Origin: Xanthobacter autotrophicus
GTDB lineage: Bacteria; Pseudomonadota; Alphaproteobacteria; Rhizobiales; Xanthobacteraceae
Direction: 5' to 3'
Assembly: GCF_030015065.1 (NCBI RefSeq)
Contig: NZ_JAIVFN010000009.1
Span: forward strand, 1 to 64,000
DNA length: 64,000 nucleotides
Shown here: positions 17,721 to 40,208 of the stretch, one piece after another
How positions within the stretch are numbered: position 1 is the stretch's first letter
Layout: every line of letters starts with the position of its first letter
Translations under genes and position numbers: made by a program
Notes under the pieces: generated by a model
Database searches by the model: none
Seen by the model: the letters and a program-made list of their open reading frames with translations, nothing else
Told to the model about the DNA's origin: nothing

Positions 17721-18251
17721 CTATGAAACCGGCCATGATGATTGGTCCTTCGGCAATCGGCATTCAGGGTCATGAACAACGACCGAGTCCTCCGGCGTCA
17801 GATTCGCGTTGAAGACCACCAGGTTGGTGCCACCGGCATGGCGCAGCGACGGGAACAGCAGGCCGCGGCATCCCGCCTCAATCAGAGAATCCGACAGGTG
17901 CCATGAAGGCGGGATCTTCCGGGCGATCCGAGCGATTTTCCGCCACGGGCAGTCCCATGCGGCCCATTCCTTCGACCATGTCGCAGGATCGAAGCCTGCC
18001 GAGAGGTCGGCGACCTGATCGAGCGTGACGATATAGGCCGCCAGCGTGCCAGGCGGGACAATCGACGCGCCCTGCTGGTATTCTTCCAGGGCGGTCTGCG
18101 GCGCCCGCGAGAGATACAATGCCTCGACGCCGGGCCGGTTGAAACGGCCACCATCGCCGGCAGCACCTGCGCCGCTGGCGGGTGCGAACGCCCATTTGGG
18201 AGTCAGGTAGCGGTGAAAGACCTCATCCGGTCCGACCCGGATGATCTTCAT
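17721..18251 (-). CDS. RES-domain toxin (NAD+-degrading), type II toxin-antitoxin
   Basis: A 176-residue RES family toxin. The RES motifs are visible: an early Arg (FHRY), GGRFN at 34-38, YLSRAPQTALEEY with the catalytic Glu, and a late Ser/Asn-containing segment. Characterised relatives (MbcT, ParT, Res) destroy or use NAD+. It is the second gene of a two-gene unit; its ATG overlaps the antitoxin stop by ATGA. Confidence 0.9.
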   Translation of the reverse strand: MKIIRVGPDEVFHRYLTPKWAFAPASGAGAAGDGGRFNRPGVEALYLSRAPQTALEEYQQGASIVPPGTLAAYIVTLDQVADLSAGFDPATWSKEWAAWDCPWRKIARIARKIPPSWHLSDSLIEAGCRGLLFPSLRHAGGTNLVVFNANLTPEDSVVVHDPECRLPKDQSSWPVS

Positions 18252-32802: not shown

Positions 32803-32937
32803 CACCGCGCGATCCGATCCCGCGGCACTGCGCACTGCCGCGACCTCAGGACCTGCGGCTCCCCTGCCCCACTCCGCCGAACGGCCCCTTGCCGTTTCCC
32901 GGATCATGTGAAACCTATTGGAGATAGGCTTCATAAA

Positions 32938-32947
32938 TTATCTATAA
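32938..32947. promoter_or_regulatory. BioR box in front of the biotin operon
   Basis: An exact TTATCTATAA, the BioR consensus, 62 bp upstream of the chosen bioF start. Confidence 0.85.
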
Positions 32948-33009
32948 TCTGGAGATTGCCATGCTGGCCGAGCCGCCCTGTCGACCGGCAGAAATCCGCG
33001 AGGCTGCCC

Positions 33010-34149
33010 GTGGAGGCGCATGACGCCGCGCTGGCGGCGCTGGCGCGGCGGGGGCGGTTGCGCACCCTGGCGCCCGCTTGTGGCGTCGACTTCGCCTCCA
33101 ACGACTATCTGGGCCTCGCCCAATCGGAGGAGTTGCGGCAGGCCGCCTGCGCCGCGCTGGCACGCGGCGTGCCCCTGGGCGCGAGCGGATCGCGCCTGCT
33201 GCGCGGCAACCACGCCGAGCACGAGGCGCTGGAGGCAGAAGCCGCCACCTTCTTCGGCGCCGAGGCGGCGCTGTTCTTCGCCGGGGGATTTGCCGCCAAC
33301 GCAGCCCTGGTCTCGACCCTGCCGCGACGCGGCGACCTCGTCGTCTACGACGCCCTCATCCATGCCAGCATCCATGAAGGGCTGGCCGGAGCCGCGTCGG
33401 CCGAGCGGGTGGCCGCCGTGGCGGCCCCCCATGCCGACGCGCAGGCCACCGACGATGCCATCCGCCGCTGGCGCGCCGAGGGCGGACGCGGGCAGCCCTG
33501 GATCGCGGCGGAAACGCTCTACAGCATGGACGGCGACTTCGCACCGCTCGACGATCTGTGCGCCGTGGCCGAGCGGCACGACGCCATGCTGCTCCTCGAC
33601 GAGGCCCATGCCACCGGCGTCTACGGCCCCGGAGGCCGCGGCCTCGCCGCCCATCTCGAAGGGCGGGCGAACGTGGTGACCCTGCACACCTGCGGCAAGG
33701 CGCTCGGCGTCATGGGCGCGCTGGTGTGCCTGCCGCGCGGGCTGAAGGACTACATGGTGAACCGCGCCCGGCCCTTCATCTATGCCACCGCACCCTCGCC
33801 GCTCCTCGCCGCCACGGTGCGGGCGGCCCTGGTCCTCGCGGAGCAGGCGCAGGAGCGGCGGGACCGGCTCATGGCCCGCATCGCCCACGCCCAGAGGGCG
33901 CTCGCGGCGATCGGCCTGCCGGCGACCTCCTCGCAGATCCAGAAAGTGGTGCTGGGCCCGGACCGGCGGGCGACGGCCATCGCCGCCGGCCTGCAGGAGC
34001 AGGGCTTCGATGTGCGCGCCATCCGCCCCCCCACCGTGCCGGAGGGCACCGCGCGCCTGCGCCTCGCGCTGACCCTCAACGCCTCCTTAGGCGACCTCGA
34101 CGCGCTCATGGCCGCCCTCGGCGCAGAACTGGAACAATCGCCCGCATGA
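33010..34149 (+). CDS. bioF: 8-amino-7-oxononanoate synthase
   Basis: A 379-residue PLP enzyme that condenses pimeloyl-ACP/CoA with alanine. Visible are SNDYLGLA near residue 30, the [13 protein letters not shown]-pocket motif (197-206) and the Schiff-base lysine K230 in [11 protein letters not shown] 33010 gives the usual length and aligns with other BioF starts. The frame is open back to 32908 across the BioR box. ATG 32961 has a good ribosome site but reads only 20 codons in another frame. It overlaps bioD by ATGA. Confidence 0.95.
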
Positions 34150-34787
34150 CCGGCTTCATCGTCACCGGCACCGATACGGGCATCGGCAAGACCGTGTTCT
34201 CGGCGGCGCTCGCCGGGGCGCTCGACGGCGCCTACTGGAAGCCGGTCCAGGCCGGCCTCGAAGGCGAGACCGACGCGCAGGCGGCCCGCCGCCTGTCCGG
34301 CCTCGCCGCCGACCGCATCCTGCCGGAAGCCTACCGCCTCGCCTTGCCGGCCTCTCCCCACCGTGCCGCCGAGGCCGAGGGCGTCACCATAGATCCGGAT
34401 GCGCTCGCGCTCCCCGCGACCCCGCATCCGCTGGTGGTCGAGGGGGCGGGCGGCCCGCTCGTACCCCTCACCCGCCGCCTGCTGTTCGCCGATATGTTCG
34501 CCACGTGGGGGCTGCCGGTGATCCTGTGCGCCCGCACCAGCCTCGGCACCATCAACCACACGCTGCTCGCCATCGAGGCCCTGAAGCGGCGCGGCATTTT
34601 CGTCCATGGCGTCGCCTTCATCGGCGCGGCGAACGAGGACAGCGAGCACATCATCGCCGAGTTCGGCGCGGTGCGCCGGCTGGGACGCCTGCCGCACCTT
34701 GCCGCCCTCACGCCCGCCGCCCTCGCCACCGCATTCGCTGAAGCCTTCCGGCGCGACGCCTTCGCCTCCGGGGAGATCCGGCCATGA
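34146..34787 (+). CDS. bioD: Dethiobiotin synthetase
   Basis: A 213-residue ATP-dependent carboxylase that closes the ureido ring of dethiobiotin. The P-loop [10 protein letters not shown] begins at residue 7, and [11 protein letters not shown] is the second conserved motif. The length is slightly short but normal. It overlaps both neighbours by ATGA, indicating tight translational coupling. Confidence 0.95.
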
Positions 34788-36049
34788 CCTCAAGCCCCTC
34801 CCCCGTCTGGCATCCCTTCACCCAGCACGCGCTCGCGCCCGAGCCTGCGATGGTGGTGCGCGGCGACGGCGCCTGGCTCGAAACCGCGACCGGCGCCCGC
34901 ATCCTCGATGCCATCTCCTCCTGGTGGGTCATCACCCACGGCCATTGCCACCCGCGGATCGTCGCGGCCATCGCCGGACAGGCCGGACAGCTCGACCAGG
35001 TGATCTTCGCCGGCCACACCCATCCGGCCGCCGAAGCGCTGGCGCGCCGGCTCGTCGCCATGACGCCGCCGGGGCTCGACCATGTGTTCTTCTCCGACAG
35101 CGGCTCCACCGCCGTCGAGGTCGCGCTGAAGATGGCGGCAGGCTACTGGCGCAACACGGGGGAGCCGCGCACCCGCATCCTCGCGCTGGAGCACGGCTAT
35201 CACGGCGACACCATCGGCACCATGTCGGTGGGCGCGCGCGGCGTCTACAATGCGGCCTACGAGCCCTTCCTGTTCGAGGTGACGCGCCTGCCCTTCCCCG
35301 AGGCGGGCCGCGAGCAGGCCACCCTCGATGCCCTGGAGGCCGCCTGCCGGGAGGCTCCGGCGGCGCTGCTGGTGGAGCCGCTGATCCTCGGCGCGGGCGG
35401 AATGCTCATCTACGCGCCGGATGTGCTCGCCGAGATGGCGGCGATCTGCGCCCGCCACCGCGTGCTCCTCATCGCCGACGAGGTGATGACCGGCTTCGGA
35501 CGCACCGGGACGCTCTTCGCCTGCGAGCAGGCCGCGATCACCCCCGATATCGCCTGCTACGCCAAGGGGCTCACCGGAGGCGCGCTGCCCCTGGCCGTCA
35601 CCTTGTGCCGAGGCGAGATCTTCGCGGCGCATTATTCCACCGACCGCGCGCGCACCTTCTTCCATTCCAGCTCGTTCACGGCGAACCCCATCGCCTGCGC
35701 CGCAGCCCTCGCCAATCTGGAGATCTGGGCGGGTGAGCCCGTGGCCGGGCGCATCGCCGCCCTCGGGACGCTCCAGGAGGCGCGGCTCGCGCCGTTCCGC
35801 GACGACAGGCGGTTCTCGAACGTGCGACGCCTCGGCACCATCGCCGCGCTGGACCTTGTCGCCGACGATCCCGGCTACCTCGCCGGGGTCGGGCCACGGC
35901 TCGCGGCTTTCTTCCGCGCGGAAGGCCTGCTGGTCCGCCCCCTCGGCAACACGCTCTATGTGATGCCGCCTTATTGCACCACCGGCGAGGACCTCGACCG
36001 GGTCTATGGTGCCATCGCCACCGCCGCCGACCGGTTCGGGCCGGCATGA
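34784..36049 (+). CDS. bioA: Adenosylmethionine-8-amino-7-oxononanoate aminotransferase
   Basis: A 421-residue class III PLP aminotransferase that uses SAM as amino donor to make 7,8-diaminononanoate. It starts with VWHPFTQH, typical of BioA. It has [13 protein letters not shown] (Trp/Tyr of the substrate pocket), [29 protein letters not shown] and the lysine in CYAKGLTGG. Confidence 0.96.
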
Positions 36050-37044
36050 GCAGGACGGACATGAACCGGATGGGCACGCGCATCGCCGGCTTCGGCCACC
36101 ATGCTCCGGACCAGGTGGTGACGAGCGCCGAGATCGAGCGCCGGCTGGGCCTCGCCGAGGGGTGGATCGCGGGACGCACCGGGATCCACGCGCGCCGTGT
36201 CGCCGCCCCGCACGAGGCGGTCAGCGACCTCGCCGTCGCGGCCGCCGACATGGCCCTGGCCGACGCGGCGCTGCCGAAAGGCGCGGTCGGCCTCACCCTG
36301 CTCGCAACCAGCACCCCCGACCATCTCCTGCCGCCCACAGCCCCCCTTCTCGCCCACCGCCTCGGCCTGACGTCCAGCGGCGCCGTTGACCTCACCGGGG
36401 CCTGCGCCGGCTTTCTCTACGCCCTGGTCCTGGCCGACGGCTTCGTCCGGACGACGGGACGCGTCGCCCTGGTGGCGGCGGCCAACATCCTGTCGCGCCG
36501 CACCGATCCCCGGGACGCCGCGACGGCGGCGCTGTTCGCCGATGCGGCCGGCGCCATCGTCCTCGCCCCGTCGCCGCGGGCCGATGCCGGCGTCATCGCA
36601 TCATCGCTCGCGTCCGACGGCTCGGCCTACGACCTCATCCAGATTCCCGACAGTGGCAGCCGGCTGTCGGCGAGCGGCCTGACGAGCGGCGACGCGCGGA
36701 TGGTCATGCGCGACGGCCGCACGGTGTTCTCCAGGGCGGTCGCCATGATGGCATCCTCCTGCCGCACCGCGCTGGAGGATGCCGGCCTCGCCCCGGAGGA
36801 TGTCATCCATTTCCTACCGCACCAGGCCAATGCCCGCATCATCACCGCGGTGGCCGAGCGGCTTGGCATCGGGCCGGAGCGGACCTTGTCGTCCGTGGCG
36901 GACTTCGGCAATTCGTCGGCCGCGACGCTTCCGTTCACCCTTTCGGCGCTGCGCGCGACCCGCGCCTATGGGGAAGGCGACGTGCTTCTCCTGACGGCCG
37001 CCGGTGCCGGCCTCACCGGCGGCGCCGCCGTGTTCCGGTTCTGA
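36046..37044 (+). CDS. bioZ: BioZ, KAS III-like enzyme of biotin precursor synthesis
   Basis: A 332-residue ketoacyl-ACP synthase III homologue with catalytic Cys120 (TGACAGFLYAL), His in HQANARI and Asn in NSSAATLP. Placed last in bioFDAZ, it corresponds to BioZ of Agrobacterium and Mesorhizobium, which starts the pimeloyl chain from glutaryl-CoA and malonyl-ACP instead of the BioC-BioH route. It overlaps the bioA stop by ATGA. No bioB is in this operon. Confidence 0.92.
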   Translation: MSRTDMNRMGTRIAGFGHHAPDQVVTSAEIERRLGLAEGWIAGRTGIHARRVAAPHEAVSDLAVAAADMALADAALPKGAVGLTLLATSTPDHLLPPTAPLLAHRLGLTSSGAVDLTGACAGFLYALVLADGFVRTTGRVALVAAANILSRRTDPRDAATAALFADAAGAIVLAPSPRADAGVIASSLASDGSAYDLIQIPDSGSRLSASGLTSGDARMVMRDGRTVFSRAVAMMASSCRTALEDAGLAPEDVIHFLPHQANARIITAVAERLGIGPERTLSSVADFGNSSAATLPFTLSALRATRAYGEGDVLLLTAAGAGLTGGAAVFRF

Positions 37045-37351: not shown

Positions 37352-37436
37352 CGTTTGAAAACACGCTCTAAACTCAAGAAAGAGAAAGCGTTGTCCGATC
37401 AGCTTGCGATGCAGGCTGATCGGCGCGTGCTCTAAG
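37352..37436. repeat. Dispersed repeat family B, copy 1
   Basis: The reverse complement of this stretch matches 52245-52318 almost base for base (segments GAGCACGCGCCGATC, CTGATCGGACAACGC, TCTCTTTCTTG and GTTTAGAG). It lies at the 3' end of the AcfC-like gene and overlaps its stop by a few bases. It contains a CCGATCAGC / GCTGATCGG dyad. Confidence 0.8.
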
Positions 37437-38193
37437 ACGCGGGGGTGATCCACCCCCATTTCTGGAAAATCCTCGCGCCCTCCGGGCTCTTCAGGAACGC
37501 GACGAAGGCCGCGGCATTCGGCTTCTCGCGCCCGCGTGCGGAGGGGACGACGCCCACGTCGCGATAGACCCGGTGGTCGGCGTCGATATCGACGGTATCG
37601 GCCAGCGTCGGGTTGGCCACCTGCCAGATGTTCCAGATGATCCAGGCGTCGAAGGTCTGGTCCTCGGTCCATTTCTGCTTGGCGGCGGCGCTGTTGGGGG
37701 AGAAGAACGCGATATTGGCGCGCAGGCGGCGAACCTCCTCGATCCTGCCGGTGCGCCCGGCCACGTCCTCCCACAGGCCGTTCTGCCCGGCCCCCTGAAC
37801 CACCAGGACCTTCATGCCCGGCTTCATCAGGTCGGAAAGGCCGCGGATCTGCCTGGGGTTTCCCGGCCGCACCAGGATGGAAGCGGCGCGCAGATACAGC
37901 GGCTCCACCTCCTCGCTGCGGACCTGGCCGTTCATGGCAGCGACGAAATCCGTCATCATGGTCTCGGAGCCGCTGAAAATCAGATCGGCATCCTCGCGCG
38001 CCTTGTCGATCCAGGCGGAGGTCGGACCGGCCGTAACGTTGACCTCGATGCCGTTGAGCTTGCCGAAGGCGGCGGCCGCCTCCTTCATGGCCGGCAGCGG
38101 ACCGCCGGGGCCATAGACGTTGAGATCGGCCGCGACGGCGCCCGAGCCGACCGCGGCAAGCGCCGCAAGCGCGATGACGGCGTGTTTGAACAT
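37432..38193 (-). CDS. Periplasmic substrate-binding protein, AcfC-like
   Basis: A 253-residue exported protein with a signal peptide to about residue 22 (GAVAA-D). It has the AcfC/SBP_bac_11 pattern: NVYGPGGPLPAMKEAA at the start, ADLIFSGSETMMTDF, RPGNP and KWGWITP at the end. The family resembles molybdate/sulfate-type binding proteins; in Vibrio, AcfC is an accessory colonisation factor. The ligand here is unknown and no transporter gene is adjacent. ATG 38193 is preferred over ATG 38202 on ribosome-site spacing. Confidence 0.82.
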   Translation of the reverse strand: MFKHAVIALAALAAVGSGAVAADLNVYGPGGPLPAMKEAAAAFGKLNGIEVNVTAGPTSAWIDKAREDADLIFSGSETMMTDFVAAMNGQVRSEEVEPLYLRAASILVRPGNPRQIRGLSDLMKPGMKVLVVQGAGQNGLWEDVAGRTGRIEEVRRLRANIAFFSPNSAAAKQKWTEDQTFDAWIIWNIWQVANPTLADTVDIDADHRVYRDVGVVPSARGREKPNAAAFVAFLKSPEGARIFQKWGWITPAS

Positions 38194-38275
38194 GCAGGAC
38201 ATCTCCGTGAAAGCCGGGCCGGCCGGACGGTCATGCCGGACGGCCGGGCGGGTTGCATCGAACGGGCGCGGGGGC

Positions 38276-38701
38276 TCAGTAGGCGGCGGCCGGATTGACC
38301 TGCCACACCTCGTCCACCAGCTTGCCGTCCCGATAGACGAGGACGTAGCGGACCTTCACCGTGGCCTTCCCCGCGAACGCCACGTCGGCGGTCACGGTCG
38401 CGCCCTTGGGGTTGGCCGCTTCGGAAACGGCCGCCACGGTCGGCTTCTGGCTGCCCTGGGCGGTGAAGAATTTCGACCACACCGCCTTGATGGCCTCGGG
38501 GTCGGAATAGGTGCCGTCCAGCGGGCCGCCGACCCAGTGGAGCGTCGCGCCGGCCCCGTAGTCGGCCGCGACCTTGGCAAGGTCGCCGGCGGCGATGTTC
38601 TGGATGCGCGACCTGGCCAGATCTTCCGCAGGGCCGGCCATGGCGGCCGTCGAGAGCAGAACGAACGCGAGCGGAGCAACAAGAATGGAACGGCGCAGCA
38701 T
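38276..38701 (-). CDS. Secreted SnoaL/NTF2-like protein
   Basis: A 141-residue protein with a signal peptide ending at about AMA-G (residue 22) and an NTF2-like fold inferred from RIQNIAAGDLAKVAADYGAGATLHWVGG and VRYVLVYRDGKLVDEVW. The family contains small-molecule binding and stress-related secreted proteins. An AGGAGG ribosome site precedes ATG 38701. Its promoter carries the same motif as the divergent ECF sigma gene, suggesting that sigma factor drives it. Confidence 0.82.
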   Translation of the reverse strand: MLRRSILVAPLAFVLLSTAAMAGPAEDLARSRIQNIAAGDLAKVAADYGAGATLHWVGGPLDGTYSDPEAIKAVWSKFFTAQGSQKPTVAAVSEAANPKGATVTADVAFAGKATVKVRYVLVYRDGKLVDEVWQVNPAAAY

Positions 38702-38734
38702 GGGATGCCTCCTGTCAGGGGTCGGACAGGGATG

Positions 38735-38761
38735 AGACATCGCGGCGCCGGATTTTATTCC
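38735..38761 (-). promoter_or_regulatory. ECF-type promoter of the SnoaL-like gene
   Basis: On the minus strand, GGAATAAA (38761-38754), a 15-nt spacer, then GTCT (38738-38735), 34 nt before the gene start. Both elements and the spacer length match the divergent promoter at 38796-38822. Confidence 0.65.
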
Positions 38762-38795
38762 GCCGTGCCTGTGCGAATTTATTTCCGCTGCCTGC

Positions 38796-38822
38796 GGAAT
38801 AAAGTGGGGGCAAACGGAGTCC
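38796..38822 (+). promoter_or_regulatory. ECF-type promoter of the sigma factor gene (autoregulation)
   Basis: GGAATAAA (38796-38803), a 15-nt spacer, then GTCC (38819-38822), 80 nt before the sigma gene. GGAA-type -35 and GTC-type -10 elements are normal for ECF sigma factors. Confidence 0.65.
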
Positions 38823-38901
38823 ATCCGAGAGATTGCCCCATTCTGCCGCCAGCCATACGGCACGAGGGCGGATCGCGTGGTCCCGAGCCCATGGAACCCT
38901 C

Positions 38902-39432
38902 ATGACCACCGAGATGGTGCGACTGATCGAACCCGTCATTCCCGCGCTGCGACGCTATGCGCGCGCGCTCATGAAGGATCGCGCGGCGGCCGACGACCTC
39001 GTGCAGGACTGCCTGGAGCGGGCCATCGGCCACTGGCACCAGCGTCATGCGGAGGGCGACATCCGGGCCTGGATCTTCGCCATCCTGCACAATCTCGCCA
39101 TGACCCGCCTGCGCCGCGCCGCCGCGCGGCCCCGTCCGGTGCCCATCGAGGACGCCCAGGAAGGCGATCTCGCCCGTCCCGCCACCCAGGAAGACCGGTT
39201 GCGCTACCGCGATGCGCTCGCCGCGCTCGCGCAGCTGCCGCACGAGCAGCGGGCGGTGCTGCTGCTGGTCGGCGTGGAGGACCTCTCCTATGCGCAGACG
39301 GCGAAAGTGCTGGGCATCCCCATCGGCACCGTGATGTCGCGGCTGTCGCGCGCCCGCGAGCGGCTCAGCAAGGCCATGTCCGAGGTGCCACGGCCGGAGA
39401 GCGCCCACCCGCATCTGCGGAGAGTGAAATGA
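38902..39432 (+). CDS. ECF-family RNA polymerase sigma factor
   Basis: A 176-residue sigma-70 family factor containing only regions 2 and 4. Region 2 is DRAAADDLVQDCLERAIGHW with DIRAWIFAILHNL. Region 4 is LSYAQTAKVLGIPIGTVMSRLSRARERL, the DNA-reading helix-turn-helix. ATG 38902 is chosen over the upstream frame extension. It overlaps the anti-sigma gene by ATGA, the usual arrangement. Confidence 0.95.
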   Translation: MTTEMVRLIEPVIPALRRYARALMKDRAAADDLVQDCLERAIGHWHQRHAEGDIRAWIFAILHNLAMTRLRRAAARPRPVPIEDAQEGDLARPATQEDRLRYRDALAALAQLPHEQRAVLLLVGVEDLSYAQTAKVLGIPIGTVMSRLSRARERLSKAMSEVPRPESAHPHLRRVK

Positions 39433-40208
39433 CCATGCGTCCCATCACCGAAGACGATCTCCACGGCTATGTGGATGGCGCGCTTGATCCCGAGCGGCGC
39501 GAGCAGGTAAGCGCCTATCTGGAGGCCCACCCCGACGTGGCCGCGCGCGTCGCCGCCTATGGCGCGGAGCGCGGGATGCTGCGTGCCGCTTTGGCCCCGA
39601 TCGTGGAGGAGCCATTGCCGGCGGAGCTCGATCTCGCCCGCATGGTCGAGGCGCGGCGCCGGCCCCCGGGGCCGCCGCGCTGGGCCATGGCGGCGGCGGC
39701 TCTGCTGCTGGTTTGCGTGGGCGGCGCGGGAGGCTGGCTGCTGCGCGGCATGGGCTCCGCGCCCGCCGAAGGGCTGCAGGCGCTCGGACGGGAAGCTGCC
39801 GCGAGCTACGCGGTGTTTGCGCCCGACAAGGGCCGGCCGGTGGAGATCCGTGCCGAGGACCGCGCGCAGCTCGTCGCCTGGACATCGCGGCGCCTCGGCC
39901 GGCCGGTGGCCATTCCGGATCTCGCCGACGCGGGCTATCGTTTCATGGGCGGGCGCGTGGTCGCCACCGAGCATGGCCCGGCGGCCCTTTTCATGTACGA
40001 CGACGACGCCGGCAGCCGCCTGGTGATGCTCGCCCGCCCGCTCGCCTCCGATCCGAAGGCGCCCATGACGCCTCATGCCAGGGATGGCGTGAACGGCTTC
40101 AGCTGGTCCGACAACGGGCTGGGCTACAGCCTCGTGGGGCAGGCCGCCCCCGAGACGCTCCACCCGCTGGCGCACGAGGCGCGCCGGCAGATCCACCGGC
40201 AAGCCTGA
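39429..40208 (+). CDS. Membrane anti-sigma factor
   Basis: A 259-residue protein with a cytoplasmic N-terminal anti-sigma domain (DDLHGYVDGALDPERREQV then YLEAHPDVAARVAAY), one membrane helix (residues about 83-105, WAMAAAALLLVCVGGAGGW) and a periplasmic domain of about 150 residues. The HxxxCxxC zinc motif of ZAS anti-sigmas is absent, so it is of the non-zinc type. It would hold the ECF factor at the membrane until a signal arrives. Confidence 0.9.
   Translation: MTMRPITEDDLHGYVDGALDPERREQVSAYLEAHPDVAARVAAYGAERGMLRAALAPIVEEPLPAELDLARMVEARRRPPGPPRWAMAAAALLLVCVGGAGGWLLRGMGSAPAEGLQALGREAAASYAVFAPDKGRPVEIRAEDRAQLVAWTSRRLGRPVAIPDLADAGYRFMGGRVVATEHGPAALFMYDDDAGSRLVMLARPLASDPKAPMTPHARDGVNGFSWSDNGLGYSLVGQAAPETLHPLAHEARRQIHRQA

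Follow-up and report, generated by a model that had tools for sequence, protein, structure and literature searches.

The closest described counterparts of the locus analysed here are the ECF26 sigma factors of Starkeya novella and S. meliloti, which we outline from the available parts of the published texts. Promoters of this group carry a consensus of GGAAT at -35 and CGTC at -10, backed by 5'RACE in a paper that uses the name ECF26 (PMC6527743), and the ECF26 consensus has also been given as GGAATA/GT (PMC6180224). The S. meliloti rpoE4 promoter is printed as GGAATAAG-N15-GTC, the spacer being our own count (PMC6180224). In reporter assays the duf305 promoter was activated by Starkeya RpoE1, and no activation was seen with the 270 bp that immediately precede rpoE1, since the active promoter is the one ahead of duf305; SnSigE, for its part, fails to induce its own promoter (PMC6527743). 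Self-control is therefore not a feature of every member of the group. In S. meliloti, RpoE1 and RpoE4 each govern their own operon, and RpoE1 additionally activates SMc02156, whose best homologues are cited as virulence-associated factors with references that include PEB3 (PMC3511301, PMC6180224).

In the window, by which we mean the whole 64,000-nucleotide stretch of Xanthobacter autotrophicus DNA analysed, the genes for an ECF sigma factor and for a putatively secreted SnoaL-like protein diverge from the intergenic region 38702-38901, which holds two copies of the octamer GGAATAAA on opposite strands, each followed by 15 nucleotides and GTC (Table 1). The original prediction had described the same octamer, spacer and GTC core on both strands, and the exact pair at 38736-38761 (minus, GGAATAAAATCCGGCGCCGCGATGTC) and 38796-38821 (plus, GGAATAAAGTGGGGGCAAACGGAGTC) bears this out, the range of 38735-38822 given for it being one base too long at each end. 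These two sites are the sole matches to GGAATAAA-N15-GTC in the 64 kb window, even when one mismatch is allowed; shuffling the window gave a mean of 0.16 matches, with two matches in 1 of 100 shuffles. The GTC core is preceded by A at the plus site and by T at the minus site, where the published CGTC would have C, and lies 80 bp from the sigma ATG and 34 bp from the SnoaL ATG, respectively. At the sequence level both sites conform to the ECF26 target pattern of GGAATA (-35) and GT (-10), and they are very probably real ECF26-type promoters of a familiar kind. We consider it highly likely that they act as a divergent pair, one serving the sigma/anti-sigma genes and the other an output of SnoaL-like and PEB3-like proteins.

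Domain searches agree with this gene content to differing degrees. The sigma factor matched Sigma70_r2 and Sigma70_r4_2 above the cut-offs and thus has the ECF architecture, with regions 2 and 4 only, while its best NCBIfam match, PRK12511, scored 145.8 bits, under the cut-off of 185. Its gene overlaps that of the anti-sigma factor. The SnoaL assignment is marginal (PF12680, SnoaL_2, 28 bits against a cut-off of 27); AGGAGG stands ahead of its ATG, the signal peptide was judged by eye, and its fold was modelled with low confidence (mean pLDDT 61.6), with no structural match at an E-value of 0.001 or better and no PDB sequence match at 0.01. The PEB3/AcfC-like protein matched the solved structures of PEB3 (E 8.9e-53) and AcfC (E 2.8e-52) over about 230-245 residues. 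Its gene begins 73 bp after the SnoaL-like gene, counted from the first ATG, and the spacing suggests that the two are probably co-transcribed. Just past the PEB3-like gene, at 32908-37044, lie biotin-synthesis-like genes (bioF, bioD, bioA and a FabH/BioZ-like gene), named from their translations.

Table 1. Genes and proposed promoter elements of the locus, in window coordinates.
Feature	Position	Strand	Details
ECF sigma factor	38902..39432	+	176 aa; sigma regions 2 and 4
Likely cognate anti-sigma factor	39429..40208	+	259 aa; hydrophobic helix 84-104 between an N-terminal domain and a C-terminal domain of RseB/MucB-like fold
SnoaL-like (NTF2-fold) protein	38276..38701	-	141 aa; signal-peptide-like N-terminus
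PEB3/AcfC-like periplasmic binding protein	37432..38202	-	
Predicted plus ECF26-type promoter, sigma/anti-sigma operon	38796..38821	+	-35 GGAATAAA 38796-38803, N15, GTC 38819-38821
Predicted minus ECF26-type promoter, SnoaL-like and probably PEB3-like gene	38736..38761	-	-35 GGAATAAA 38761-38754, N15, GTC 38738-38736
Proposed shared UP-like element	38776..38784	.	A/T tract AATTTATTT; proposed from A/T content and position

We searched the organism's own genome (5,043,655 bases in 594 contigs) for GGAATAAA-N15-GTC, with the reversed motif as control. Three exact copies were found, all at two paralogous sigma loci, compared to none for the control. The third copy, on contig 8 (33729-33754, minus strand), precedes an IS-cut SnoaL remnant beside a sigma paralogue that is 79% identical to the window sigma, and opposite it GGAATAAA-N14-GTC heads a row of DUF305, YVTN, sigma and anti-sigma genes. 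Across the genome the octamer with a spacer of 14 or 15 is confined to these two loci, and the octamer alone occurs 22 times (15 for the control). The contig-8 SnoaL remnant (about 33566-33755; L049:3566-3755) abuts a DDE transposase-like gene, yet the site preceding it is intact. Further along the same contig (L049:7690-8200), downstream of the paralogous sigma/anti-sigma pair, we noted by eye a sulfide:quinone oxidoreductase-like gene, a possible sulfur link.

Looser motifs, unlike the exact one, often arise by chance. In the own genome, GGAATA-N15-18-GTC gave 78 matches against 25 for the reversed control, and a GGAAT...CGTC form, which covers octamer spacers 13-14 only, gave 100 against 9. 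Summed over 41 genomes, GGAATAA-N15-16-GTC gave 194 matches against 170, and over 18 genomes 153 against 107; many relaxed matches read GGAATAG and looked like coding sequence by eye. Relaxed two-box motifs were rejected as a regulon list, and by themselves the two boxes are poor regulon finders. From the 153 matches we inspected 40 regions, 20 of promising appearance and 20 mostly leftovers of a few genomes, a selection that gives no rate. As regards the expectation that the motif would lead directly to the regulon, the exact form is too strict for relatives and the relaxed forms are swamped by background. Separately, contig 10 carries a GGAATA-N-AAGTC site (18101-18126, minus strand) some 200 bp ahead of the matched portion of another ECF sigma gene, one that is more distant; in genome G012 an ECF gene is preceded by a near-identical site (L157), and a similar one occurs in G005. 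The distant ECF gene with a GGAATA-type site (L157) means that the motif is not exclusive.

Recurrence was examined in upstream regions of 400 bp, taken from 26 sigma-linked DUF305 genes, nine sigma genes taken as first in their operons and nine SnoaL genes or fragments, leaving aside the distant ECFs (L030-L039) and one sigma gene cut at a contig end (L027). A GGAATA...GTC site stood upstream of all 26 DUF305 genes (mean 0.06 in shuffles), cases that are not independent, as a single genome contributes two copies and close rhizobia contribute several. The site also preceded 7 of 9 SnoaL relatives, the window's included, the one PEB3-like gene tested (1/1), and 3 of 9 operon-first sigma genes. 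Thus it was absent within 400 bp at six operon-first sigma genes and two SnoaL relatives. Plain misses at this distance were the sigma genes of L100, L102, L103 and L026 and the SnoaL gene of L102. At L099 a Lipoprotein_15 gene comes first in the operon and the site precedes that gene; at L029 the site lies about 440 bp upstream of the sigma gene; and the SnoaL gene of L098 (G012) is interrupted by roughly 1.2 kb of inserted DNA with transposase-like frames. In two of the 26 DUF305 cases, the copies L097 and L098 of a single genome, DUF305 points away from the sigma gene instead of preceding it. Among the 41 genomes, eight of the nine SnoaL matches had a sigma gene of this type no more than 2.3 kb away. 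The ninth (G014) has a site upstream and a CopC gene downstream, with no such sigma gene in the 7.5 kb analysed. In G012, a single site heads a row of SnoaL, sigma and anti-sigma genes.

Divergent pairs of sites were found at seven other loci, with 35-85 bp between the GGAAT ends compared to 34 bp in the window, and L158 may be an eighth. At most DUF305-led loci we found just one, one-sided copy before the operon. We compiled a refined motif from 46 hand-picked sites, omitting near-duplicates and others (including L019, L022, L028, L098, L147, L149, L157 and L158); GGAATA and GTC were the rule of selection, so that their own constancy proves nothing. With three spacers allowed in the search, the spacer was 14 in 33 sites and 15 in 13. 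GGAATA was followed by A in 44 of 46, the eighth base varied (A 32, T 9, G 3, C 2), and GTC was preceded by T or C in 37 of 46. The octamer with N15, exact within the window, is accordingly stricter than the real element, in which the spacer is 14 or 15 and the eighth base is variable. These data bear on a quite different reading, in which the inverted repeat TTTATTCCG...CGGAATAAA is the operator of a dimeric DNA-binding regulator instead of two -35 elements. Two mirror-image copies of GGAATAAA so near each other are what such an operator would look like, but the GGAAT 5' ends of the eight divergent pairs are 34, 84, 85, 84, 67, 62, 35 and 58 bp apart, only two neighbouring GTC spacers of the three allowed occur in the 46 sites, and most DUF305-led loci have one, one-sided copy. 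We regard an operator as very improbable.

In addition to the two boxes, we identified a third element that is absent from the original prediction, an A/T tract that precedes GGAAT by 12-20 bp. Across the 46 sites, the block from -20 to -12 averaged 74% A/T compared to 31-37% in three other upstream blocks. Likely-real sites (n=11, from 10 loci) likewise averaged 74% A/T, against 39% in 30 other matches from the same set of regions (Mann-Whitney p 6e-5), a comparison in which the targets were labelled from their downstream genes and not blind and in which 6 of the 10 loci overlap with the 46-site collection. Seven of nine A/T positions are reached by three of the 30 other matches, so some of these others may be real sites. 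A-tracts are found upstream of ECF promoters. A literature search on ECF sigma factor, UP element and A-tract found no published description of such a tract at promoters of this kind. In the window, AATTTATTT, one of seven A/T runs of at least nine in the 64 kb, fits -20 to -12 of the plus promoter exactly and occupies -23 to -15 of the minus promoter. Its position suggests that it would act as an UP element, and one tract could serve both promoters.

The same tract bears on the view that one site alone is active, the other match having decayed or arisen by chance. The minus site has the tract only partly in register, six of the nine positions of its -20 to -12 block overlapping AATTTATTT and being A/T; set against this are the divergent pairs at seven other loci and the site before 7 of 9 SnoaL relatives, and we consider a single active site improbable. 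In the genome of Variovorax sp. E3 (L158:1353-1424), a divergent GGAATAA...GTC pair 20 bp apart has a single A/T tract between its sites, one side pointing by eye toward an ECF-like gene, and may be another instance of tract sharing. We offer a testable three-part promoter of A/T tract, GGAATAA and GTC for sigma factors of a group in which signal and targets are known only in part; the tract may rescue regulon searches in which two short boxes drown in background.

Phylogenetic analysis placed the window sigma inside a clade of DUF305-linked sigma factors (26 rows, support 97/95), where it pairs with that of Xanthobacter sp. NM-59 (support only 97/76) beside the contig-8 type, in a tree that does not contain Starkeya's own sequence. 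DUF305 lies upstream in 24 of the 26 rows, the exceptions being the window and NM-59. The contig-8 paralogue has the order duf305-YVTN-sigma-anti-sigma; the window operon is without the DUF305 and YVTN genes usual for the clade, and its sigma gene comes straight after the predicted promoter. Our preferred reading of the window locus is a duplicate from which DUF305 and YVTN have been lost, with the reverse order as a possible alternative. The paralogue might also be the main reader of the window sites, it or another ECF sigma factor using them with the neighbouring sigma as a minor user. Region 4 of the paralogue is almost unchanged at 79% overall identity, the same sites stand at its locus, and cross-activation within ECF26 has been published (PMC6527743 and PMC6180224, in the parts available). 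The order of the adjacent genes and the recurrence of this short form in NM-59 nevertheless suggest that the local sigma is at least among the users, and we think a minor role for it unlikely; the two related sigma factors probably share these sites.

The neighbourhoods of sites in other genomes offer hints about the regulon. In Rhizobium halophytocola (L008:896-2847), divergent sites separate CopC-CopD from an MsrB gene whose product looks secreted, an arrangement located immediately ahead of the DUF305-sigma operon. In NM-59 (L096:2733-5833), SnoaL, MsrB, MsrA and PEB3-like genes form a row in which sites precede the SnoaL gene and the PEB3-like gene, the latter with a spacer of 14, and the Msr proteins have secretion-like N-termini by eye. 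In a further four rhizobial genomes, sites are followed by genes that look CopC-like by eye (L015, L017, L144 and L145). In G012, a sulfite-oxidase-like gene, which belongs to a known class of targets, has a site 42 bp upstream. The own genome has four PF00174 (sulfite-oxidase-family) matches, and no site was found on the gene strand in the 2.7-3.5 kb around each; the two GGAAT...GTC matches near them (L112 and L113) are both on the strand opposite to the gene, so that control of sulfite oxidation is not supported in the own genome.

A tentative possibility is that ECF26 sigma factors of the DUF305 clade run a small periplasmic oxidation and copper-damage module, comprising MsrA, MsrB, CopC/CopD, DUF305, the propeller protein, the secreted SnoaL-like protein and the PEB3-like protein, and not mainly sulfite oxidation. 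The anti-sigma factor would then sense through its RseB/MucB-like domain, and the window would be a stripped-down duplicate whose shared tract couples autoregulation to SnoaL and PEB3. DUF305 is present in the copper protein CopM (PMC4335983, available part). A literature search found no paper joining methionine sulfoxide reductase, ECF sigma factor, periplasmic and CopC, nor SnoaL as an ECF26 target. In the available parts of ECF reviews, SnoaL features as a fusion domain of ECF41-type sigma factors and of some others (PMC8103513, PMC8999054).

The anti-sigma factor matched NCBIfam families under their cut-offs, had no Pfam match and had no PDB sequence match at an E-value of 0.001. In its structural model (mean pLDDT 84, pTM 0.56), a hydrophobic helix lies between a helical N-terminal domain and a C-terminal one. 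The latter best matches RseB/MucB (Foldseek E 5.6e-4, with a TM-score of only about 0.26); against RseB/MucB (VIA) it gave Z 9.2 over 95 residues at an rmsd of 3.0, the best unrelated row reaching Z 7.4, and the N-terminus gave Z 4.2 over 56 residues against ChrR. The hydrophobic stretch at 84-104 suggests a membrane helix and its orientation, and the modelled layout of N-terminal domain, transmembrane helix and periplasmic domain would be that of an ECF26 partner. The model further hints at a built-in sensor. To our knowledge, an RseB/MucB-like fold fused to an anti-sigma factor is unusual.

We propose that the membrane anti-sigma factor would release the sigma factor, and that RNA polymerase with the window sigma, and very likely with the contig-8 paralogue too, would bind GGAATAAA and GTC, aided by the A/T tract between the promoters. 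Rightward transcription would produce the sigma/anti-sigma pair, giving positive autoregulation and a reset, and leftward transcription would produce the secreted SnoaL-like protein and the PEB3/AcfC-like binding protein. We infer the binding, start sites, PEB3 co-transcription, tract sharing and signal in this scheme; sigma dependence and mapped starts have been shown by others for such promoters in relatives. The fit to the ECF26 consensus, the adjacency of the sigma and anti-sigma genes and the recurrence in relatives argue in favour of the original prediction that the sigma factor controls itself and the secreted SnoaL-like protein. The locus would thereby tie two secreted proteins of unknown role, SnoaL-like and PEB3-like, to ECF26-type promoters.

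Compared to known systems, the window sites share a GGAA-type -35 with EcfG-type (ECF15) promoters, whose consensus is GGAAC-N16-17-GTT, but read GGAAT...GTC. S. meliloti RpoE1 and RpoE4, in the available texts, resemble the window in their GGAATA/GT consensus, N15-GTC promoter and self-activation. Induction by sulfite, taurine or tetrathionate is a mark of RpoE1/RpoE4 regulation. Their target SMc02156, of periplasmic-binding fold, is likened by description to the window PEB3-like gene, a link that we treat as a lead. The first gene differs, being SMc01418 with a 'lipoprotein 15' motif, and the Lipoprotein_15-linked rhizobial sigma factors included in the tree fall outside the window clade. 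The term 'SnoaL' does not occur in these papers (PMC3511301, PMC6180224), nor in the Starkeya SnRpoE1 paper (PMC6527743). Like the window, the S. novella SnRpoE1 locus (Snov_0990-0993; PMC6527743, available part) has a sigma/anti-sigma pair, and the consensus given in that work is GGAAT...CGTC. Its operon order of duf305-YVTN-sigma-anti-sigma is shared with the contig-8 paralogue and not with the window operon, where, in contrast to SnRpoE1, the predicted promoter stands right before the sigma gene and forms a pair with that of the SnoaL-like gene.
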